The translations under genes and the position numbers were made by a program. A model generated the notes under the pieces. The model was not told the DNA's origin. It searched no databases and worked only from the letters and a program-made list of their open reading frames with translations. Shown here piece after piece: positions 53,123 through 63,209 of a stretch of 64,000 bases of DNA. Source of the DNA: Bacteroidales bacterium (GTDB taxonomy: Bacteria; Bacteroidota; Bacteroidia; Bacteroidales; UBA932); assembly GCA_017429475.1 (NCBI GenBank), contig JAFROX010000002.1, positions 62,001 through 126,000 on the forward strand. Direction: 5' to 3'. Each line of letters opens with the position of its first letter. Positions within the stretch are counted from its first letter, which is position 1.

Positions 53123-54843
53123 AATCTCTTCTCTATATCTTCGTCAGTAATGATGGTGTAGGTCCTGCCACCCGAAGGGGCCGTCTCGGGCTGATTGCAG
53201 TCCAGCAGCTGTCTTACCAACAATTGTGCCCCGGCCTGGCCGACGCTGCTGTGGTCGGCAAAAGCCACGGAATGTGCCAAAGTGGCAGCGTCACGGGCCG
53301 CATCATCGCCCAGCTTACCCTGTCTTATGTCATCTATGATCATCTCAATCGCATCTTCGATGCCTCCGCCATCGGCGTTCATACCTGCAGGAAGTCCGTA
53401 GAGCACTATCGAGTTCTGCCCTAGATCGCGCAGGTCGAAACCCAGCTTTGCGAACAGGTCGGAGTTATCCAGGGCAAGGTCGTGGTCTTCGGGCGAGAGG
53501 TCCAGGCTAAGAGGATACAGCGACTGCTCCGTCACGGGATGTCTTTCCGCCAGCAGGGGGAAATATTCTTCGTAGAGGATCCTCTCCCTCGCCCTTTGTA
53601 TGTCAACCACCATCAGGCCTTCATCCACCGGCACTGCCACAAAACGGGAACCGAATGTCACAACCGGCCTTTCAGATGCAGCAGGGCCGGCCTGGGGAAC
53701 GTGCACCGGAATGTCTGCGGGCATGCGGCGCTCCTGCTCGAAAGGATCGAAAAGCGGATTGTAGTCGATTTTAGGGGGAGCGGTATATCTCGGAGCGTCC
53801 TTCGACATCGAAGGAAACTCTATGGAAGGCACCTGGTCGAAATCAAGGCTGGGCGTGAAGGCATTCTGGCCGAGGGCCTTGCGGACGGTGACACTCAATA
53901 TTTCGAAAATCATCGGTTCGTCCTCGAACTTCACTTCCGTCTTGGCGGGGTGGATATTCACGTCGATGGCCGACGGATCTACTTCGAAGAATATGAAATA
54001 GGACGGCGAGCTGCCCTCCTTAAGCAGATTCTCGTAGGGTTTGCATACTGCCTTGTGCAGATAGGGACTGCGGAAATAACGGCCGTTCACGAAGAAATAC
54101 TGGTTACCCTGCACCTTGCGTGCCTCGGCAGGTGCTCCGACGAAGCCTTTGATCTTCACCATTGACGTCTCAACCTCGATGTCCACCAGTTCCTTTGTGA
54201 GACCGACACCTCCGAAATCCACTATACGCTGCTTCTCGTTGCCTGCCGGACGCAGATTGTAGAGAGTCTTGCCGTTGTGTATGAAAGTGAAGGCGATGGA
54301 AGGATTGACTATGACCACCCTGGAGAACTCCTGCACAAGATGTCTGAGTTCAGCGGCGTCGGATTTGAGGAACTTGCGGCGGGCAGGCGTGTTGTAGAAC
54401 AGGTCCCTTATCTCGATGCTGCAGCCCTTGGGCGTCGATGCCGGCTCGGCCGACGTAATCTTCGATTCGGAGCAATGCACTTCGATGCCGACTTCATCTT
54501 CCTCCCTGCGGGTTCGCAAAGTAACCCTCGACACTGCGGCTATGGAGGCGAGAGCCTCGCCCCTGAAACCGTATGTCACGATGCTCTCCAGATCTTCAGC
54601 CGTGGAAATCTTGGAAGTGGCGTGGCGCTCGAAGCAAAGACGCGCATCTTCAGGACTCATTCCGCTGCCGTTGTCAATCACTCGGATGCAGGTGCGGCCC
54701 GCATCCTCAACCACCACGGAAATGTCGTCGGCACCTGCGTCGATGCTGTTTTCCAACAATTCCTTGAGAGCTGATGCCGGACGGTTGACTACCTCTCCCG
54801 CTGCTATCAAATTGGCTATGTTGCCCGGCAGTACGTTGATCAT
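53119..54843 (-). CDS. mutL: DNA mismatch repair protein MutL
   Basis: The coordinating ATPase of mismatch repair. The 574-residue protein has a normal GHL ATPase: LLENSIDAG (Glu31), DNGSGM and GFRGEAL (92-98), then NIHPAKTEVKF. The C-terminal dimerisation domain is present, but the endonuclease motif DQHAxxExxxxE reads D414-IQRAR-E420-RILY-E425. The CPHGRP-type motif is replaced by APSGGRT (555-561). It therefore probably lacks the intrinsic nicking activity of the common bacterial MutL. It overlaps the rhomboid gene and lies 3 bp after a small hypothetical gene. Confidence 0.95.
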   Translation of the reverse strand: MINVLPGNIANLIAAGEVVNRPASALKELLENSIDAGADDISVVVEDAGRTCIRVIDNGSGMSPEDARLCFERHATSKISTAEDLESIVTYGFRGEALASIAAVSRVTLRTRREEDEVGIEVHCSESKITSAEPASTPKGCSIEIRDLFYNTPARRKFLKSDAAELRHLVQEFSRVVIVNPSIAFTFIHNGKTLYNLRPAGNEKQRIVDFGGVGLTKELVDIEVETSMVKIKGFVGAPAEARKVQGNQYFFVNGRYFRSPYLHKAVCKPYENLLKEGSSPSYFIFFEVDPSAIDVNIHPAKTEVKFEDEPMIFEILSVTVRKALGQNAFTPSLDFDQVPSIEFPSMSKDAPRYTAPPKIDYNPLFDPFEQERRMPADIPVHVPQAGPAASERPVVTFGSRFVAVPVDEGLMVVDIQRARERILYEEYFPLLAERHPVTEQSLYPLSLDLSPEDHDLALDNSDLFAKLGFDLRDLGQNSIVLYGLPAGMNADGGGIEDAIEMIIDDIRQGKLGDDAARDAATLAHSVAFADHSSVGQAGAQLLVRQLLDCNQPETAPSGGRTYTIITDEDIEKRL

Positions 54844-54846
54844 TTC

Positions 54847-55215
54847 CTACTGCAGAAGAAGGTTGACTCCGATGGTGAAGTAATATACGGCCACAACGGC
54901 CAGCAGAAGCGACACGATGATGATGATCGTCCTCAGCTTGGTATTGGTGGTCTTGCGGCGGTTGCTGTCGATGCCGTTGCGGTATGCGTCACGGATAAGG
55001 ATGCCCGGAACATATCCGTCCCTGAGATGGTTCTTCGGTTCATCGTCCTTGGCCTGGGCATCATCTGAGCCCTTACCCTCCCACGGTGTGTTGGGATTGT
55101 ATTCCTTGCCGTATTTGGCATAGCGTTCTTTCATCTTCTCTTCCTTCTCGTTCCAGTAGCGGGGTTCGTAGTGGAAGACTCTGTGCTTGGGTGTAGGTAA
55201 AAAACTGATGCCCAT
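54847..55215 (-). CDS. Conserved Bacteroidota hypothetical with C-terminal membrane anchor
   Basis: A 122-residue protein. The N-terminus MGISFLPTPKHRVFHYEPRYWNEKEEKMKER is the conserved part of a small Bacteroidota family. A charged, low-complexity middle follows and one helix (about 95-115) near the C-terminus, so it is probably a tail-anchored or single-span inner-membrane protein facing the cytoplasm. Some database entries of this family carry a mistaken riboflavin synthase name. The function is not known. It lies between tsaE and mutL. Confidence 0.75.
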   Translation of the reverse strand: MGISFLPTPKHRVFHYEPRYWNEKEEKMKERYAKYGKEYNPNTPWEGKGSDDAQAKDDEPKNHLRDGYVPGILIRDAYRNGIDSNRRKTTNTKLRTIIIIVSLLLAVVAVYYFTIGVNLLLQ

Positions 55216-55227
55216 AATGTCTTGTTT

Positions 55228-55650
55228 TTATTCGTTGTCTATCTCTATTGTCCTGCTGTCGTCAGCGGCGACGGTTATGCGCACGTTCAGCGTCTGTTCG
55301 GGCAGCAGCGGCTCAACCTTTTCAGGCCACTCTATCAGGCAGAGACTGCCGGAATAGAGGTATTCCTCGAATCCGATGTCCACCGCCTCCCTGAGGGAGT
55401 CGATGCGGTAGAAATCGAAATGGAAGATGCTCTCGCCGTCGGCTGCGCGATATTCGTTGACTATGGTAAAAGTCGGGCTGCAGACATCGTCTGCAACCCC
55501 GTAATACCTGCACAGTGCGCTGATGAAGGTGGTTTTTCCAGCCCCCATGCTGCCATAGAAAGCCACGATCCGGTTCTCCCCAAGCACCGCGGCAAATTCC
55601 CTGGCCGCAGCATCAATGCTTTCGAGGCTGTCTATGACTATCGTTTTCAT
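55228..55650 (-). CDS. tsaE: tRNA threonylcarbamoyladenosine biosynthesis protein TsaE
   Basis: The ATPase of the t6A synthesis complex with TsaB and TsaD. The 140-residue product has the Walker A loop GSMGAGKTT (about residue 34-42), the HFDFYRI motif and LIEWPEKVEPLLP. The start overlaps the upstream methyltransferase gene by 4 bp. Together with tsaC in the same run, two of the t6A genes are clustered here. Confidence 0.95.
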   Translation of the reverse strand: MKTIVIDSLESIDAAAREFAAVLGENRIVAFYGSMGAGKTTFISALCRYYGVADDVCSPTFTIVNEYRAADGESIFHFDFYRIDSLREAVDIGFEEYLYSGSLCLIEWPEKVEPLLPEQTLNVRITVAADDSRTIEIDNE

Positions 55651-56648
55651 TTCCCTTTGTTAAAATCATCCAGAGCCTTGTAGAAGGCATCGATGTTGGC
55701 TGGCGCAACGCCGGGAGGCGTATCGCAGCCGGATGACAGTACAAAGTTAGGATATTTTGCCGTTGCCTGAAGAAGTTCGCTGGTGACTTTGTACATTTCT
55801 TCGGGACTAGCCTGCTTGAAGACAGAAACAGGGTCCACATTGCCGAATGCAAGTGCATCGGCAGGACAGCCCTCAAGTGCCTCGACCATCTTGATCTTGT
55901 TGCCGAAATGGAATCCCCAGGCACCTGTGGCAACCATAGCCTCGGTGCAGTGGCCGGTGTTTCCGCAGTTGTGGAGAACCACGGCGAAATTCTCATCCTG
56001 CACTGCATCGATGATCTTCTTCACATACGGAGTGCACCACATCAGGTTATCTTCGTTCGAGAGCAGGCCGGAGGCGGGTTCGGCCATAAGCACGGCGGGA
56101 CAGCCCGTCTCCTTGATGGCCTTCACATATTTGAGAAGGAATTCGGTGCATTTTTCAAGCAGCATCTGCATGGCATCCGGCTCGATGTAGATTCCCATCA
56201 TTATCTCTGTCATGCCATAGAGACGGCCTGCCAGAGAGAACGGTCCGATGCAGCCTGCCAGAACAGGTTTTGGCAATGTTGCCGCCAGTTTGTCGGCTTT
56301 GAGATATTCAGGAATCCTGCCGGCATCCAGAGACGGTACCTGCAGGGCTTCAATCGCGGCTGCATCTTCCACCAGGCGGCCTTCTATCGAAGGTATTGCT
56401 TCATAACTGAACGATACGTTGGCGCCGAAAGCCTGGGCCTCGACACTGAGGTCCATAATGGTGGTGAGGGCCGCTGACTGAGAATACTTTTCGCACAAAG
56501 CCTTGACGGCTTCATAATGTACCTGGCCGGAACTTACGGCCTCTTTCACATTGTAGCCGAGCATTTCAATACCCGGGTGGGTCATTACGGGAACGGCCGC
56601 CCTCCTGGTGGACGACAGTATCTCTTTCTTCCAGTCGTTGACGTTCAT
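55647..56648 (-). CDS. Uroporphyrinogen-decarboxylase-fold methyltransferase, MtaA/CmuA type with zinc motif
   Basis: The 333-residue protein has the UroD-like TIM barrel but no decarboxylase active-site signature. Instead it keeps the HxCxnC zinc-thiolate motif of methylcobamide:thiol methyltransferases: His226-Asn-Cys228 (VLHNCGNTGHC) and Cys308 (SSGCDTPPG). It should therefore move a methyl group from a corrinoid protein to a thiol, such as homocysteine or an unidentified carrier. It lies in a tight unit (corrinoid protein, activation-domain protein, this gene), overlapping the preceding gene and tsaE by 4 bp each. Confidence 0.85.
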   Translation of the reverse strand: MNVNDWKKEILSSTRRAAVPVMTHPGIEMLGYNVKEAVSSGQVHYEAVKALCEKYSQSAALTTIMDLSVEAQAFGANVSFSYEAIPSIEGRLVEDAAAIEALQVPSLDAGRIPEYLKADKLAATLPKPVLAGCIGPFSLAGRLYGMTEIMMGIYIEPDAMQMLLEKCTEFLLKYVKAIKETGCPAVLMAEPASGLLSNEDNLMWCTPYVKKIIDAVQDENFAVVLHNCGNTGHCTEAMVATGAWGFHFGNKIKMVEALEGCPADALAFGNVDPVSVFKQASPEEMYKVTSELLQATAKYPNFVLSSGCDTPPGVAPANIDAFYKALDDFNKGK

Positions 56649-57295
56649 TTCTTTATGTTTTTTAAACGGTTCTTATAACAATCCTTGCGGCCGCAGATGG
56701 CGCAGCCGTATTCTCTTTTCTCGACTTTCGCTCCCACCGAAACGATGCCGCTGACCGATTTGATAGGATACATCAGGCAGGAGTCGTTCAGGCTCACTCC
56801 GCAGGTGTCGCCGCCGAAGCGTGAGAAAATCTCCCGCTGGTCGGAAAGCACCCAGCCGCAGTAGCCCGGGCTGTAGGAATTGCTGACCCCGACTCCCGGA
56901 TAGTCAGCCTCCATTTCTTTCACGCACTCCCTGACGGTTGCCTCTGCTATTTCGCTCCCGATCAGATCGGCAGCATAGACCTTCACTATGTCGCCTTCTT
57001 CGGAGATCCTGTTAATCTCCTCCTGGAATTCCATTCCGGCCGTAGCGACGAACAGCAGATACTTCTCGGCCCCCGAAAGGCCTTTCATTATGATGCCTTT
57101 CGGAGAAAGGCCTTCGACGGTAGACTCAATGTAGTGGAACCTGGGATGACAAACCTGGCTGAACCGTTCCAGCAACCCGTCCACAATGGCTTTCATATCC
57201 TCGGGAGGGGCTTCCGGGTCCGGATAACCCATCGAACGGTAAATTTCGCTGATGTCAAGCGAAATATCCGCCATTGTCATCCTGCGGGAATCCAT
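56645..57295 (-). CDS. Methionine synthase activation-domain-like protein with C-terminal Cys cluster
   Basis: The 216-residue protein corresponds to the AdoMet-binding reactivation domain of MetH. The hallmark is SYSPGYCGWVLSDQ (140-153) followed by CGVSLNDSCLMYPIKSVSGIVSVG (165-188), which aligns with the MetH GVSLTES-MxPxxSVSG region. A C-terminal C198-x2-C201-x4-C206 cluster (CAICGRKDC) is added. As a separate protein it probably reduces and remethylates inactive cob(II)alamin on the partner corrinoid protein. It starts 3 bp after the corrinoid gene and overlaps the zinc methyltransferase gene by 4 bp. Confidence 0.8.
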   Translation of the reverse strand: MDSRRMTMADISLDISEIYRSMGYPDPEAPPEDMKAIVDGLLERFSQVCHPRFHYIESTVEGLSPKGIIMKGLSGAEKYLLFVATAGMEFQEEINRISEEGDIVKVYAADLIGSEIAEATVRECVKEMEADYPGVGVSNSYSPGYCGWVLSDQREIFSRFGGDTCGVSLNDSCLMYPIKSVSGIVSVGAKVEKREYGCAICGRKDCYKNRLKNIKK

Positions 57296-57298
57296 AAC

Positions 57299-57928
57299 TT
57301 AGATAAGTGACTTCGCAAGCGCTACCGCTTCGTTGGCATTGGCACTGTAACCGTCTGCTCCTATTTCCTTGGCAAAAGCCTCGCTGATGGGTGCACCACC
57401 GACCATAATCTTCACGCTGTCGCGAAGACCGGCTGACGTAAGGGCGTCTATGACCACTTTCATATTGCCCATCGTCGTGGTAAGGAGAGCGGATAGCGCC
57501 AGGATATCGGGATGATGCTGGTTGACTGCGTCGACGATCTTCTGGTCGGACTGGTCCACGCCAAGGTTGATGACTTCGAAGCCACAACCTTCGAGCATTG
57601 AGGCGACCAGGTTCTTGCCGATATCGTGAAGGTCACCTTTGACGGTAGCTATCACTATCTTGCCCATAGAGGTCACTCCGGAGCCCTGCATCATAGGTTT
57701 GAGTATTTCAAGGGAGCCCTTCATGGCTCGGGCGGCCATAAGAAGGTTGGGAACATAGGCCTGGCCGGCTTCGAATTTGGCTCCGATGTCTTCCATCGCC
57801 TTGATCATATAGTTGTTGACCAGGTCGCCCGGCTCGGCGCCTGCCTCTACGGCCTCCTTGGTGACGGCAACAGCTGCATTCAAATTGCCGGCAAGGATCG
57901 CATCGTGTAATTGGGGAAATTCTGCCAT
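57299..57928 (-). CDS. Corrinoid (cobalamin-binding) methyl-carrier protein
   Basis: The 209-residue protein has an N-terminal four-helix cap (about 1-85) and a B12-binding Rossmann domain (about 88-209). The Dx-H-xxG signature is Asp99-Leu-His101-Asp-Ile-Gly104 (GDLHDIGKN). The SxL stretch is at about 146-148 and the GG at 177-178. It carries the methyl group between the two UroD-type methyltransferases. It is the first gene of the minus-strand run and diverges from the second methyltransferase gene, with a 114-bp gap. Confidence 0.93.
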   Translation of the reverse strand: MAEFPQLHDAILAGNLNAAVAVTKEAVEAGAEPGDLVNNYMIKAMEDIGAKFEAGQAYVPNLLMAARAMKGSLEILKPMMQGSGVTSMGKIVIATVKGDLHDIGKNLVASMLEGCGFEVINLGVDQSDQKIVDAVNQHHPDILALSALLTTTMGNMKVVIDALTSAGLRDSVKIMVGGAPISEAFAKEIGADGYSANANEAVALAKSLI

Positions 57929-57985
57929 TGTATAGATATTATTGTTGTTGGACCTCTAAATTACAAAAATTATCAAGAAAAAGAG

Positions 57986-57993
57986 TACCTTTG
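57986..57993 (+). promoter_or_regulatory. -7 box of the zinc-less methyltransferase gene
   Basis: TACCTTTG, 49 bp before the ATG at 58043. A good -33 box is not seen. The minus-strand promoter of the corrinoid gene is less clear. Confidence 0.45.
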
Positions 57994-58042
57994 GAGAGAA
58001 TGCACCATTCCAAAACGTCTAACCTTAACATTATCCACAATA

Positions 58043-59104
58043 ATGAATGCCGATCAAATAAAGCTGATTGAAGAGACACTGGACCACAAGAACTCCAAGA
58101 TTCCCGTAGCCCTCATCGCCGACAGTCCCTGGATTCCGGGCTATTGCGGCCATACCTTCATCGATTATTATGCAAATACAAAGTTGTTCATAGAAGACAA
58201 CCAGAAGATTATCAGGGACTTTCCCGAGGCAATCTTCATCCCCGGATGGTGGGTTGAATACGGTATGACAGCCGAGCCGTCCGGATTCGGATGCTCGTTG
58301 TGCTTTTATGACGACAACCTGCCCCACCTGCGTCCTTTGACAGAAGATCTCGACAAGGCCCGTGAAGTGTTCGGCAACATCCATACACCTGACCCCCGTG
58401 TCGACGGCGTGATGCCTCTGTTGCTCAACCAGCAGAGAATATACCAGCCGATAATGGAGGCCCAGGGCGAAGAAGTGTATATGGTATGCGCCCGCGGTCC
58501 TTTCACCGTGGCGTCCCATATGTTCACCGTCACCCAGCTCCTGATGCTTATGATGATGGATCCCGATACCGCAGCAGTACTTCTCGAGAAGAGCACTCAG
58601 ATGGTGATCGACTGGCTGAACGCCCAGCTGGAGAACGTCAAGACCGCAAAGGCGATAATGGTTCTCGACGACGTGTGCGGCTACTTCAGCCCCGAAGACT
58701 TCCAGACTCTCTGCCAGCCCTATATGCAGAGGGTGTTCGACGCCTTCCCCGGCTACCGTCACTTCTTCCACAATGACTTCACTTCGAACTCTTGCTATTC
58801 TCACCTTGAGGAGATGGGAGTTCACGCCTTCAACTTCACCCATATGGAGGATATCGTCGCCAGCCGCAAACTTGCAGGAGACAAGGTTGTCCTGATGGGT
58901 AACGTTCCGCCGATGCTGCTCGTAAACGACACTCCCGAGAACGTTTACAAGGCAACCAAAGAAATAGTAGAGAAATACATCGCCGGCAACGGAAGCCATC
59001 ACGGACTGCTCCTCAGCACCGGAGGCGGACTGCCCATGGGTGCCAAGAAGGAAAACATCGACGCCCTGATCGCTGCCGTAGCTGACATCAATAAAACTCT
59101 GTAA
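58043..59104 (+). CDS. Uroporphyrinogen-decarboxylase-fold protein without zinc motif, probable substrate methyltransferase
   Basis: The 353-residue protein starts MNADQIKLIEETLD; a longer in-frame extension back to 57911 overlaps the corrinoid gene and is rejected. It shares the UroD barrel with the zinc methyltransferase across the divergent gap. However, the zinc motif has become His243-Asn-Asp245 (FFHNDFTSNSC), and the distal Cys is replaced in STGGGLPMG (326-334). Methyltransferase I enzymes, which take a methyl from an O- or N-methylated substrate, do not need the thiol-activating zinc. So this is the likely substrate-side enzyme. The substrate is unknown. Confidence 0.8.
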   Translation: MNADQIKLIEETLDHKNSKIPVALIADSPWIPGYCGHTFIDYYANTKLFIEDNQKIIRDFPEAIFIPGWWVEYGMTAEPSGFGCSLCFYDDNLPHLRPLTEDLDKAREVFGNIHTPDPRVDGVMPLLLNQQRIYQPIMEAQGEEVYMVCARGPFTVASHMFTVTQLLMLMMMDPDTAAVLLEKSTQMVIDWLNAQLENVKTAKAIMVLDDVCGYFSPEDFQTLCQPYMQRVFDAFPGYRHFFHNDFTSNSCYSHLEEMGVHAFNFTHMEDIVASRKLAGDKVVLMGNVPPMLLVNDTPENVYKATKEIVEKYIAGNGSHHGLLLSTGGGLPMGAKKENIDALIAAVADINKTL

Positions 59105-59106
59105 AG

Positions 59107-59610
59107 ATGAAAAGACTTCTCACATTGCTCGTTGCCGCTGTTTTTTGCAGTAGCATTGTAGCCACAGCCCAGGATATGAGCGACGTGATCAAGGCCGGGA
59201 AGAAAGCCCCTGCCTTCAAGCTCCCCACTCCCGAAGGGAAGATGGTTTCACTATCCGATTTCAAAGGGAAATTCGTTGTAATAGATTTCTGGGCTTCCTG
59301 GTGCCCGGACTGCCGCAAAGAAAATCCCGGTCTGGTGAAAATCCACAGCAAATATGCCCCCAAAGGCGTCGCCTTCATCGGAGTGTCGTTCGACACCGAA
59401 CGCGAAGCCTGGCTCAAGGGTATCGAGAGTGACAACCTCAAATGGACCCAGGTCAGCTCTCTCGTCAAATGGAAGGAAACTCAGATTTCCAAGGATTACG
59501 GCATCAACTGGATTCCCACGTTCTACCTCATCAACAAGCAAGGACGTGTGATAGGTGCATACATCACCGCCGAATCACTGGCCGCAGCCCTCGAGAAACT
59601 GGCTTTATAG
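59107..59610 (+). CDS. TlpA-like exported thioredoxin-fold protein
   Basis: A 167-residue protein with a signal peptide (about 1-21, ending ATAQ). A thioredoxin/AhpC-TSA fold follows with active site Cys66-Pro-Asp-Cys69 in FWASWCPDCRKENP, then the cis-Pro in WIPTFYLINKQG. It probably reduces or isomerises disulfides in the envelope. It starts 2 bp after the methyltransferase gene and could be co-transcribed, though no obvious functional link is visible. It ends at a shared terminator. Confidence 0.9.
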   Translation: MKRLLTLLVAAVFCSSIVATAQDMSDVIKAGKKAPAFKLPTPEGKMVSLSDFKGKFVVIDFWASWCPDCRKENPGLVKIHSKYAPKGVAFIGVSFDTEREAWLKGIESDNLKWTQVSSLVKWKETQISKDYGINWIPTFYLINKQGRVIGAYITAESLAAALEKLAL

Positions 59611-59634
59611 ACAAGACTCACATACTGCACAAAT

Positions 59635-59672
59635 AAAAAGACCGCAAACCCCGGGGTTTGCGGTCTTCCTTT
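59635..59672. terminator. Bidirectional terminator between the TlpA-like and hppA genes
   Basis: AAGACCGCAAACCCC pairs with GGGGTTTGCGGTCTT, flanked by an A-run on the left and a T-rich run on the right. Confidence 0.85.
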
Positions 59673-59686
59673 TTATGGAACATCGA

Positions 59687-61906
59687 TCAGAAGATGCTGA
59701 AGGCAACAACCAAGCCTGCAACTACGATCGAAACCATGGACATCAATTTAATGAGGATATCAAGAGAGGGGCCGGTTGTATCCTTGAACGGATCGCCTAC
59801 CGTATCTCCTACTACGGAAGCTTTATGGGCGTCAGAGCCCTTGCCGCCGTGATTTCCTTCCTCGATATATTTCTTGGCGTTGTCCCAGGCGCCTCCGGCA
59901 TTAGCCATAAACACTGCAAGGACGATTGCCGTGCTCAGACCTCCGACAAGAAGACCGACGACTCCGGCCACGCCGAAGATGATGCCAATTACGATAGGGA
60001 TGATGATGGCCAGCAATGCGGGCATCGTCATTTCCTTCTGCGCGCCTTTGGTAGAAATCTGGACGCAGCGCTGATAATCCGGAACCGCCTCTCCTGTGAG
60101 GATGCCTTTGATCTCACGGAACTGACGGCGGACCTCAGTCACCATATTCTCGGCTGCACGGCCCACTGCGTTGATGGTCATTCCACTGAAGAAGAATGCA
60201 ACCATAGCACCGAGGAAGATACATACGAGGACGATGGGATTCATCAGGCTTATATCGTAATATTTGACTATATCCATTATGGATGCGTCGCTCACTGCCA
60301 CTGAAGAGCCATCAGCGAACTGAAGCACATTCTGCCCGATGTGGCTGAAAGCAATCTTGATTTCCTCAAGGTATGAAGCGACCAGCGCAAGAGCAGTCAT
60401 AGATGCGGAACCGATTGCGAAGCCCTTTCCGGTAGCGGCAGTGGTGTTGCCCAGAGCGTCGAGGCTGTCTGTGCGGTGGCGTACTTCCTCAGGAAGGCCG
60501 GCCATCTCGGCAATACCTCCGGCATTGTCGGCAACAGGGCCGTAAGCGTCGGTTGCGAGGGTTATGCCAAGGGTAGAGAGCATACCTACGGATGCGATTG
60601 CGATTCCATAGAGACCGTGCTGCACATTGGTTGCAGTAAGCAGGTTATGGATATCGAAGTTGATGGCGCAGAGGTATGACATTATGATTGAGATACCGAT
60701 GACGGTGACAGGAATGGCAGTAGAAATCATGCCGGTTCCGATACCGTTGATGATGACAGTTGCCGAACCGCCGGTGTCGGCACTCTTGGCGATAGCCCTG
60801 GTAGGCTTATATGAGTGGGATGTAAAGTACTCAGTGACTTTTCCAATAATCACACCTGCCAGAAGACCGATGATGACGGCAGTTGCAAGCAAGTACCAGT
60901 TGGGAATACCGAGCAGATAGAGGATTGCGAAAGAGCAGATGGCGATCAGGACTGCACTGAAGTTCACGCCGCGGCTGATAGAGCCGAGCAGATCCTTCAT
61001 AGTAGCATCCTCTTTGGTCTTTACCATAAAGATTCCGATGATTGAGAGGAATACTCCAATCGCGGCGATGAGCATAGGCGCCATCACGGCCTTGACCTGC
61101 ATTGCCTCGCCTTGAGGTGCAAACGCTGCGGCGCCGAGAGATACGGCGGCAAGGACGGAACCGACATAGCTTTCATAGAGGTCCGCTCCCAGTCCGGCGA
61201 CGTCACCTACGTTGTCACCGACATTGTCGGCAATGGTTGCGGGGTTGCGGGGGTCGTCTTCCGGGATTCCAGCCTCGACTTTTCCTACGAGGTCGGCTCC
61301 CACGTCAGCGGCTTTAGTGTAGATACCTCCGCCGACACGTGCGAACAACGCCTGGGTAGAAGCACCCATACCGAACGTCAGCATCGTAGTGGTGATGACG
61401 ATCAGTTTCTGGGTTCCGTCGATATCGACGAAACGGTTGAGGATCAGATACCACAAAGCGATATCCAGCATACCGAGGCCTACAACTGTGAGACCCATCA
61501 CGGCGCCGCTTCTGAATGCGACTGTCAGGGCCTTGTTAAGCGACTTGGTTGCAGCGTGCGCGGTACGTGACGACGCATAGGTTGCAGATTTCATTCCGAA
61601 GAAACCGGCAAGACCGGAGAATATACCTCCGGTGAGGAAAGCGAAAGGAACCCAGTTGTTCTGAACGTGGAGTCCATAAGCCAGGAAGGCAAAGAATACG
61701 GCAAGACATATGAACACGATGATAACGACTTTATACTGCTGGCGCAGGTAAGCCATCGCACCTTGTCTTATGTACATTGCAACTTGTTTGATGCGGTCAG
61801 TACCTTCATCTTCACGCTTCATCGTCTTGTAGAAGAAGAAAGCAAAACAAAGAGCTATGATAGATGCTGCGGGCACAAACCAGAAAATGGCTGGTACGTG
61901 TTGCAT
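59687..61906 (-). CDS. hppA: Membrane-bound ion-pumping pyrophosphatase
   Basis: A 739-residue protein with about sixteen helices that couples pyrophosphate hydrolysis to Na+ and/or H+ export. The substrate-binding loop KVEAGIPEDDPRNPATIADNVGDNVGD (in two parts) is complete. The GNTTAATGKGFAIGSA segment has Ala at the position that marks the K+-dependent subfamily, whose Bacteroides members are known as Na+ or Na+/H+ pumps. It is a single gene facing the GH10 gene's terminator. No clear TAnnTTTG box was found upstream. Confidence 0.96.
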   Translation of the reverse strand: MQHVPAIFWFVPAASIIALCFAFFFYKTMKREDEGTDRIKQVAMYIRQGAMAYLRQQYKVVIIVFICLAVFFAFLAYGLHVQNNWVPFAFLTGGIFSGLAGFFGMKSATYASSRTAHAATKSLNKALTVAFRSGAVMGLTVVGLGMLDIALWYLILNRFVDIDGTQKLIVITTTMLTFGMGASTQALFARVGGGIYTKAADVGADLVGKVEAGIPEDDPRNPATIADNVGDNVGDVAGLGADLYESYVGSVLAAVSLGAAAFAPQGEAMQVKAVMAPMLIAAIGVFLSIIGIFMVKTKEDATMKDLLGSISRGVNFSAVLIAICSFAILYLLGIPNWYLLATAVIIGLLAGVIIGKVTEYFTSHSYKPTRAIAKSADTGGSATVIINGIGTGMISTAIPVTVIGISIIMSYLCAINFDIHNLLTATNVQHGLYGIAIASVGMLSTLGITLATDAYGPVADNAGGIAEMAGLPEEVRHRTDSLDALGNTTAATGKGFAIGSASMTALALVASYLEEIKIAFSHIGQNVLQFADGSSVAVSDASIMDIVKYYDISLMNPIVLVCIFLGAMVAFFFSGMTINAVGRAAENMVTEVRRQFREIKGILTGEAVPDYQRCVQISTKGAQKEMTMPALLAIIIPIVIGIIFGVAGVVGLLVGGLSTAIVLAVFMANAGGAWDNAKKYIEEGNHGGKGSDAHKASVVGDTVGDPFKDTTGPSLDILIKLMSMVSIVVAGLVVAFSIF

Positions 61907-62042: not shown

Positions 62043-63209
62043 CTACTGTTCTGCTTTGGGCGGTTCAGGAATTGTCAACACGGCATCGAGCGCCTTGTGG
62101 GGAGTGAGGTCCCTGTTGAAAAGCAGAGGATAGTTTGTCCTTCTGGGTATAGGAGAACCGTTTTTCCAGGAAGCCCCGTCGTGCAGGCCCCAGAAAGTCA
62201 CGCGGTCTATCTGGTCACGATGGTTGTAGAAAATCCTGAAGAGTTCCTCATATCTTGCAGCCAGTTGGTCTTCAACCTCGGCGGGGAGACCTTCCTTGTA
62301 AGGATCAAGGAACTCTTCGAACTCCTCCAACTGGTACTGGGGATCCTGAAGCGAGCGGCCGATGACCTGTCCTTCTTTCGAAATGGGAAGCACATCCACG
62401 TCAAGCTCGGTAATCATTACCTTTACACCGAGTTCGGCAAGCTGGTCGATAGCCTCTTCGATATACTCGTTCTTGGGATAGTTGAGTCCCCAATGGGCCT
62501 GGATGCCGACGCCGTCTACCTTGAGACCGTCAGCGCGCAGCCTGCGGACAAGATTCACGACTCCTTCGAGCTTGGACGGACGCCATACATTGAATTCATT
62601 ATAGTAGAACTCTGTTCCTTCAGGTGCATATTCATTGGCGAACTGGAAGGCAAGCTTTGCAACCTCGTAGCCGTCACCTCCGAATGCGTGCACCCAGCCA
62701 AGGTCGCGGAAACCGCCGTCCTCGGCAACTATTTCATTAACTACGTCCCATGCGTCCACCCTTCCAGCGAAGTGCGTAACAACAGTCTCAATGTAACTGC
62801 GCAGTGTTTCAACAAGCTCCTCCCGGCTCTTGGGAGTGCCGTCTGGCCTTGTCCAGAAGAAATCCGGGGTCTGGTTGTGCCAGCAAAGAGTGTGGCCAAG
62901 CACGAACATTCCGTGCGCCTTTCCATAATCTACATAGGCGTCGGCAGGGCCGAAGTTCCACACATCGGGACCGGGATGCAGACTCTCGGGTTTCATCGCA
63001 TTGTCAGGGGAGATTGCGTTGAAATGCTTTTCGAGAAGTTCCTGAGCCTCAGGATTACGGCCGCTTATCGTCATCGGGCTGATTGCGCAGCCCATCTTGA
63101 AGCTGTCCGCATATGCTTCCTTCAGGGATGTGGGTTTATTTCCGACCTGGTCGCACGAAACTGCAACAATGCATACGAATGCAAGGAAAAGAATGGATTT
63201 TGCCTTCAT
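62043..63209 (-). CDS. Endo-1,4-beta-xylanase, glycoside hydrolase family 10, lipoprotein
   Basis: A 388-residue single-domain GH10 that cleaves inside the xylan backbone. The lipobox is VSC (Cys19), so it is anchored to a membrane, probably at the surface. Acid/base Glu159 lies in AWDVVNE and the nucleophile Glu268 in MITELDVD. Further motifs are GHTLCWHNQTPDFFW and GVGIQAHW. The start at 63209 is chosen because an upstream ATG at 63230 lies on the promoter -7 box. No SusC/SusD neighbours are present. Its products could be further cut by the GH3 lipoprotein and GH43 enzyme. Confidence 0.95.
   Translation of the reverse strand: MKAKSILFLAFVCIVAVSCDQVGNKPTSLKEAYADSFKMGCAISPMTISGRNPEAQELLEKHFNAISPDNAMKPESLHPGPDVWNFGPADAYVDYGKAHGMFVLGHTLCWHNQTPDFFWTRPDGTPKSREELVETLRSYIETVVTHFAGRVDAWDVVNEIVAEDGGFRDLGWVHAFGGDGYEVAKLAFQFANEYAPEGTEFYYNEFNVWRPSKLEGVVNLVRRLRADGLKVDGVGIQAHWGLNYPKNEYIEEAIDQLAELGVKVMITELDVDVLPISKEGQVIGRSLQDPQYQLEEFEEFLDPYKEGLPAEVEDQLAARYEELFRIFYNHRDQIDRVTFWGLHDGASWKNGSPIPRRTNYPLLFNRDLTPHKALDAVLTIPEPPKAEQ

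Follow-up and report, generated by a model that had tools for sequence, protein, structure and literature searches.

Four genes (g1 to g4) in a 64,000-nt stretch of Bacteroidales bacterium (UBA932; GCA_017429475.1, contig JAFROX010000002.1, positions 62,001 to 126,000, forward strand; hereafter, the window) encode two proteins with the fold of uroporphyrinogen decarboxylase (UroD), a corrinoid protein, and a MetH-type activation protein. We propose that they form a corrinoid-based O-demethylation relay. An alpha-glucuronidase would free 4-O-methyl-D-glucuronic acid from glucuronoxylan, and g4, a zinc-free UroD-fold protein, would move the methyl group of this sugar acid to the cob(I)alamin of g3. 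The D-glucuronate left over would enter the UxaC/UxuB/UxuA route. g1, with a zinc site of the His-Cys-Cys (H-C-C) type, would transfer the methyl group of g3 to a thiol acceptor, for which homocysteine is the best candidate, yielding methionine, and g2 (a MetH-type activation fold with four conserved cysteines and possibly an iron-sulfur [Fe-S] cluster) would re-reduce g3 upon oxidation of its cobalt. We infer every chemical step of this scheme, as well as its substrate, acceptor, cluster, and metal content. That g4 loads a corrinoid is quite probable; the joint claim (i.e., g4 loading, 4-O-methylglucuronate as the substrate, and homocysteine as the acceptor) is tentative, and we rate it slightly below an even chance.

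Predicted carrier, activator, and zinc enzyme of the locus

What the computation shows is the identity of the genes, the conservation of their motifs and linkage, and their co-occurrence. An initial annotation of the window had described four open reading frames (ORFs) and their motifs, all of which were recovered by ORF translations, Pfam searches, and alignments (Table 1). Its residue assignments were also confirmed (H226, C228, and C308 of g1; H243-N244-D245 of g4, with glycine in the column of the last cysteine), and both GDLHDIGKN of g3 and CxxCx4C of g2 were present in the translations.

Table 1. Features of the proposed relay locus and its context (positions in the window)
Feature	Position	Strand	Description
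g1	55647-56648	-	333 aa; MtaA-like UroD fold; PF01208, E=4.6e-49
g2	56645-57295	-	216 aa; PF02965, E=9.7e-7, model positions 126-265 of 273 only (C-terminal half)
g3	57299-57928	-	209 aa; PF02607 + PF02310 (two B12-binding domains); predicted corrinoid carrier
g4	58043-59104	+	353 aa from ATG 58043; PF01208, E=2.3e-41; predicted zinc-less UroD fold
g2 C198-x2-C201-x4-C206	56678-56704	-	From translation
g2 C146 in SPGYCGW	56858-56860	-	Proposed fourth Fe-S ligand; alignment column by eye
g3 GDLHDIGKN	57611-57637	-	From translation; DxHxxG cobalt-ligand motif (assumed)
g3/g4 divergent promoter region	57929-58042		114 bp
g4 H243-N244-D245	58769-58777	+	H and D kept in 92/93 subfamily rows; all three invariant in 18
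g4 G327-G328-G329	59021-59029	+	At the place of the third zinc ligand; invariant in 18 members (alignment)
GH10 xylanase	62043-63200	-	PF00331, E=1.7e-84; 3 kb from g4; context, not claimed for the relay

g3 combines PF02607 and PF02310 with a DxHxxG motif, as expected of a corrinoid carrier, and its nearest solved structure is 1y80 (E=3.2e-60). We take its GDLHDIGKN to be the cobalt-ligand motif. For g2, the nearest solved structure is 1j6r, the Thermotoga maritima MetH activation protein, and we propose that g2 is a stand-alone MetH-type activation protein that would reductively activate g3. A C-x2-C-x3-6-C motif was present at the C terminus of 40 of 40 stand-alone activators (identical copies included) versus none of eight MetH C-terminal domains. 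A PGYC-type cysteine, identified by eye, occurred in 37 of the 40, and the three exceptions are partners of split MetH. The four conserved cysteines of g2 could bind an Fe-S cluster. The T. maritima protein (TM0269) appears in PMC7857596 as a reference title; it has a stand-alone activation fold like that of g2 and serves a split MetH, whereas g2 adds the PGYC cysteine and CxxCx4C and would serve a separate corrinoid protein.

The nearest solved structure to g1 is MtaA (4ay7; E=3.9e-12), and the H-C-C site was retained in 29 of 29 g1-type rows. g1 has the same fold and H-C-C site as the MtaA/MtbA methylcobamide:coenzyme M methyltransferases but fell below every curated NCBIfam cut-off (e.g., TIGR01463, 107.9 versus 235.4 bits; PRK06252, 121.6 versus 244). 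The NCBIfam models for MtaA, MtbA, CmuA, and HemE all matched below their cut-offs, and for g1 the MtaA/CmuA and HemE matches were far below. To our knowledge, coenzyme M is not expected in Bacteroidales. The site of g1 is presumably of the type found in thiol-activating enzymes, and a site of the H-C-C type is documented for MetE and MetH in passages of PMC7857596. We propose that g1 is a methylcorrinoid:thiol (homocysteine) methyltransferase with a zinc site. No homocysteine or pterin domain was found among g1 to g4 (Pfam), and the four genes do not make up a MetH, which would combine domains for homocysteine, folate, B12, and activation, whether in a single chain or in a split form.

The 4-bp overlap of g1 and g2 and the 3-bp gap between g2 and g3 indicate that g3-g2-g1 is one operon. 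g4 lies outside it, across the divergent promoter region from g3. Upstream of g4, TACCTTTG at 57986-57993 (+) fits the Bacteroides -7 box, for which the consensus is TAnnTTTG. An Rfam search of positions 54800-59700 detected no element, including riboswitches, at E<=1. The last 4 bp of g1 are shared with a TsaE-like ORF (55228-55650, -), and the operon may extend past g1 into housekeeping genes. On the other side, a TlpA-like thioredoxin ORF (59107-59610, +) begins 2 bp past g4; a same-strand ORF also follows g4 in several close loci (defined below).

A conserved UroD-fold subfamily represented by g4

Among 295 genomes searched in the order, relatives of g4 were found in 18 besides its own (E<=6e-46; 29 to 38% identity) and were set apart from other UroDs, which began at 9e-25. 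Across species genomes of bacteria and archaea, at least 554 relatives were confirmed; the best 80 of these, which were used downstream, belong, going by their record titles, to Bacteroidota, Verrucomicrobiota, Planctomycetota, Hydrogenedentota, and further groups. No match was found in the viral contigs searched.

The initial annotation had allowed for the zinc-less enzyme being a degraded paralogue, and the zinc ligands of g4 are indeed altered. Conservation contradicts decay. The H-x-D...G pattern was found in 92 of 93 aligned g4-type rows (the window and 91 of 92 others) from several phyla, the single exception having a gap there, and 42 columns were invariant in the alignment of the 18-member subfamily. 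g4 was also less divergent than g1 over 19 linked pairs (median, 0.25 versus 0.36). A quick tree split the 93 g4-type and 29 g1-type rows into the two sides of one branch with top support. The changed motif is therefore not a sign of decay, since it is kept across these rows; g4 belongs to a conserved H-x-D...G subfamily in which the zinc site is predicted to be absent, and degradation is extremely improbable. The tree distances of g1 and g4 were correlated (r=0.80), which linkage alone predicts and which is not strong evidence.

That both UroD-fold proteins are decarboxylases, another outcome foreseen in the initial annotation, does not agree with their scores: TIGR01464 (HemE) gave 59.1 bits for g1 and 62.6 for g4, against a cut-off of 302.95, and HemE was rejected as an identity for either. 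g4 itself matches the UroD-fold model PF01208.

Zinc-free UroD-fold methyltransferases are already known. According to passages of PMC13222342, the UroD-fold methyltransferase I CdmB was active and crystallized without zinc, and the Moorella O-demethylase and MtvB are also zinc free, while some other O-demethylases hold zinc. In these systems (MtvB, OdmB, VdmB, MtoB, and CdmB), as here, a UroD-fold methyltransferase I is paired with a separate corrinoid protein. They act on methoxy-aromatics or haloalkanes with a pterin second enzyme, whereas here the context is one of sugar acids and the second enzyme is a UroD-fold protein with a predicted zinc site. The proposed relay resembles known O-demethylase systems and departs from them in its substrate context and second enzyme.

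Genomic linkage points to a corrinoid partner for g4. The 21 close loci (L229 to L249) share 66 to 99% identity with g4. The four-gene order of the window is more than a chance arrangement, since it recurred in six of them (L229 to L234; 82 to 99% identity) and in genome G079; L229 appears to be a contig of G014. A g1-type gene was linked to g4 in 18 of the 21 (six in the window order, 11 directly before g4, and one about 5 kb off). Two of the remaining loci, L235 and L239, are contig ends, and L249 has a GH67 gene immediately before g4 with no g1 between them. The g1-g4 pair is conserved despite rearrangement, and the contiguous cassette is confined to the nearest relatives of the window. Co-occurrence across Bacteroidales, which the initial annotation had raised, is thus upheld for the pair and not for the contiguous cassette: an activator and a carrier adjoined the g4 relative in only 2 of the 18 g4-bearing genomes of the order (G104 and G342).

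At the genome level, a stand-alone activation-domain ORF was present in 15 of these 18 genomes versus 2 of 15 comparison genomes without a UroD match (1e-10). Stand-alone corrinoid ORFs of 160 to 290 aa were present in 16 of 18 versus 2 of 15 (counted by hand, with ORF-length classes assigned by eye). In the two UroD-less genomes with an activator (G101 and G115), the ORF adjoins a corrinoid-domain ORF of 774 or 820 aa, i.e., a split MetH. The other 5 of the 20 comparison genomes carry other UroDs, and 4 of them have a stand-alone activator. L288 places a carrier, a PF02574-like enzyme, an activator, and a g4 relative in a single run, and in L095 a set of activator, corrinoid, and PF02574 genes diverges from g4.

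Several results weigh against methyl loading by g4. Its best profile matches among solved structures were decarboxylases (3.3e-15), followed by MtaA (1.5e-5) and CdmB (2.4e-4); the CdmB match had no stretch passing by itself, and CdmB was the sole characterized UroD-fold methyltransferase I compared. No stand-alone activator match was found in 3 of the 18 g4 genomes (G328, G357, and G323). Among 70 distant loci (76 minus 6 in which no g4 ORF had been selected), a corrinoid or activator gene stood in the same run as g4 in only one. The controls were fewer and covered shorter stretches than the test set, and loci that share ancestry do not count as independent observations. The structural ranking and the many relatives that do not adjoin corrinoid genes would suit a UroD-fold sugar-acid isomerase, lyase, or decarboxylase that transfers no methyl group and lies near the corrinoid operon by chance. 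This alternative is improbable given the low HemE score, the genome-level linkage of activators and carriers to g4, the L288 operon, and the linkage of g1 and g4 in most close loci.

Glucuronate-pathway neighbors and the proposed substrate

GH67 enzymes free (4-O-methyl-)glucuronic acid from xylo-oligosaccharides, and the xylan of wood and grasses commonly bears 4-O-methylglucuronate side groups. A GH67 alpha-glucuronidase gene adjoined g1 or g4 in 13 of the 21 close loci (identified by Pfam in four and by blastp in the rest), immediately before g1 in 12 (L236 to L238 and L240 to L248) and immediately before g4 in L249. The gene after g4 is GH43 in L249 and GH30-like in L238. Among distant loci, GH67 lies directly before g4 in L257 (Sedimentisphaerales) and divergent from g4 in L255 (labelled Clostridiales). 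The glucuronate isomerase gene uxaC directly adjoins g4 in three loci: L283, L285, and L250, the last being sister to the close clade. In L302, g4 is followed by a short-chain dehydrogenase (SDR) gene and then, as the second gene past g4, by the mannonate dehydratase gene uxuA.

Overall, GH67, UxaC, or UxuA accompanied 26 of 99 g4 loci (13 of 21 close and 13 of 78 other) versus 1 of 56 other corrinoid/UroD loci (L213); Fisher tests on these counts ignore the relatedness of loci. The counts include a weak UxaC in L262 (29% identity) and a partial GH67 in L096 (about 110 aa) and leave out a partial UxuA at the edge of L288, with which they become 14 of 78 and 27 of 99. On the basis of this neighborhood, 4-O-methyl-D-glucuronate is the most likely candidate for the O- or N-methyl substrate that the initial annotation had left unassigned, and we moderately favor it. 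The roles proposed there (g4 as the loader, g3 as the carrier, g2 as the activator, and g1 as the zinc thiol methyltransferase, with homocysteine likely) stand as readings from context, the substrate now being narrowed.

Other observations speak against this substrate. No GH67, UxaC, or UxuA was found in the window plus 60 kb of flanking sequence (i.e., the 124 kb of its own contig that was searched within the genome) or beside the seven closest loci (L229 to L235). The commonest partners of g4 in the 70 distant loci were GFO/IDH/MocA oxidoreductases (31) and DUF6807 proteins (30), and both often partner g4 relatives in L080 to L096 and L250 to L308. Since distant relatives mostly have such partners, the g4 subfamily may serve several O-methyl sugars. 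The same relay could accordingly act on another O-methyl sugar or glycan fragment, the GH67 linkage being peculiar to one branch. This would agree with the neighbors of g4 at other loci (beta-galactosidase, GH43, GH30, or sulfatase-like) and with GH67 being out of reach in window-type loci. Against it, GH67-linked loci flank the window type on both sides in the quick tree, with L238 next to the window type, and UxaC adjoins g4 in the sister locus L250. We consider a different sugar unlikely, though a serious contender to 4-O-methylglucuronate. Genome G033 carries homologues of g1 to g3, and the UroD gene adjacent to them is a different one that adjoins genes for a major facilitator superfamily (MFS) transporter and a GH38 enzyme (L034:10207-15250); this would be a second sugar-linked version of the relay.

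An open-access search with narrow terms found no literature tying corrinoid enzymes to 4-O-methylglucuronate and no paper covering anaerobic removal of its methyl group. Methylglucuronate is named as a xylan product in PMC4765114, the passages of which contain no demethylation step. As described in passages of PMC10033563, a cytochrome P450 demethylates 6-O-methyl-D-galactose in marine bacteria during polysaccharide use. Like the route proposed for g4, the P450 route takes off a sugar O-methyl group; it is oxidative and yields formaldehyde, whereas the proposed route is corrinoid based.

Candidate methyl acceptors and implications for Bacteroidales

Acceptor modules were found in the fetched stretches of 15 of the 18 g4 genomes: PF02574-like homocysteine S-methyltransferases in eight, pterin methyltransferases in four, and g1-type proteins in four, with two kinds together only in G227. 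The PF02574-like and pterin proteins lie beside a carrier or activator; two of the eight and one of the four were checked by Pfam, and the rest were assigned by blastp. Because other genomes have either a homocysteine S-methyltransferase or a methyltransferase of the pterin (tetrahydrofolate [THF]) type in the slot of g1, homocysteine is the likely thiol, and we lean toward it as the methyl acceptor of g1. The arrangement suggests one methyl-corrinoid pool with interchangeable outlets. Passages of PMC7857596 describe MesA, MesB, and MesC as core methionine synthases that methylate homocysteine independently of folate, with corrinoid proteins as the methyl donors; these are MetE relatives, whereas g1 has a UroD fold.

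In a sample of seven genomes from the genus, the three with the cassette (G000, 80% complete; G014; and G079) had no match to full-length MetH, MetE, or methylenetetrahydrofolate reductase (MTHFR), while all four others (G033, G051, G066, and G091) had MetH and MTHFR. In the genome of the window, PF01717 (MetE) had no match, and PF02965 matched g2 only. This pattern fits a role in methionine supply and is no proof of it. The initial annotation had asked whether genomes with the cassette lack full-length MetH and MetE; the three sampled in the genus show no match to either, and in the family many genomes without the cassette also lack both. MetH absence alone was rejected as proof, because 29 of 99 family genomes had no PF02965 match and MetE was present in just 3 of 99. 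These family-wide absences count against a methionine role, as do two markers that did not discriminate among 32 genomes: homoserine acyltransferase (PF04204; 1 of 32), which leaves the supply of homocysteine unproven, and adenosylhomocysteinase (27 of 32).

The relay could instead end on a different thiol or on none, and would then not be a methionine route. G033, G116, G203, and G206 carry a g1-type gene along with full-length MetH, and the methyl group appears to be oxidized to formate in genomes that combine a pterin methyltransferase with MTHFR and formate-THF ligase, joined in L222 by a formate transporter. MTHFR was present in all four pterin-methyltransferase genomes, and formate-THF ligase was present in three of the four. 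Such an outcome seems unlikely, considering the retained H-C-C site, the 8 of 18 genomes in which a member of the homocysteine S-methyltransferase family takes this position, and the three cassette genomes without MetH, MetE, and MTHFR. Homocysteine thus remains our preferred acceptor.

Related Bacteroidales loci showed further variants. L222 (4600-10188), L217, L224, and L194 carry a corrinoid protein, a pterin methyltransferase, and MTHFR, with formate-THF ligase in the first three and a formate transporter at L222 and L217; this set is a possible methyl-to-formate pathway in Bacteroidales. MtaB-like methanol methyltransferase genes (PF12176 in L040) share a stretch with corrinoid or activator genes in L039, L040, L043, L045, L218, and L191. 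A second UroD-type enzyme of 433 to 540 aa lies near CobW-type GTPases in L035 to L038, L214, L220, and L225, with a thioredoxin-like C terminus in both proteins checked (L214, 539 aa; L035, 449 aa, weak).

More broadly, a multiphylum UroD-fold subfamily may demethylate O-methyl sugars in the glycans of plants and algae via corrinoid proteins, anaerobically and without O2. The methyl groups would go to methionine (through g1 or a homocysteine S-methyltransferase) or through THF to formate, the carriers would be re-reduced by a new Fe-S MetH-type activator, and the system would replace folate-dependent methionine synthesis in some gut Bacteroidales. This wider reading is doubtful as a whole. 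If the proposed relay is real, it would name an enzyme for the anaerobic demethylation of 4-O-methylglucuronate and explain the use of that sugar by anaerobes, account for many "uroporphyrinogen decarboxylase" genes within polysaccharide loci, and tie plant fiber to the supply of methionine or formate in the gut.

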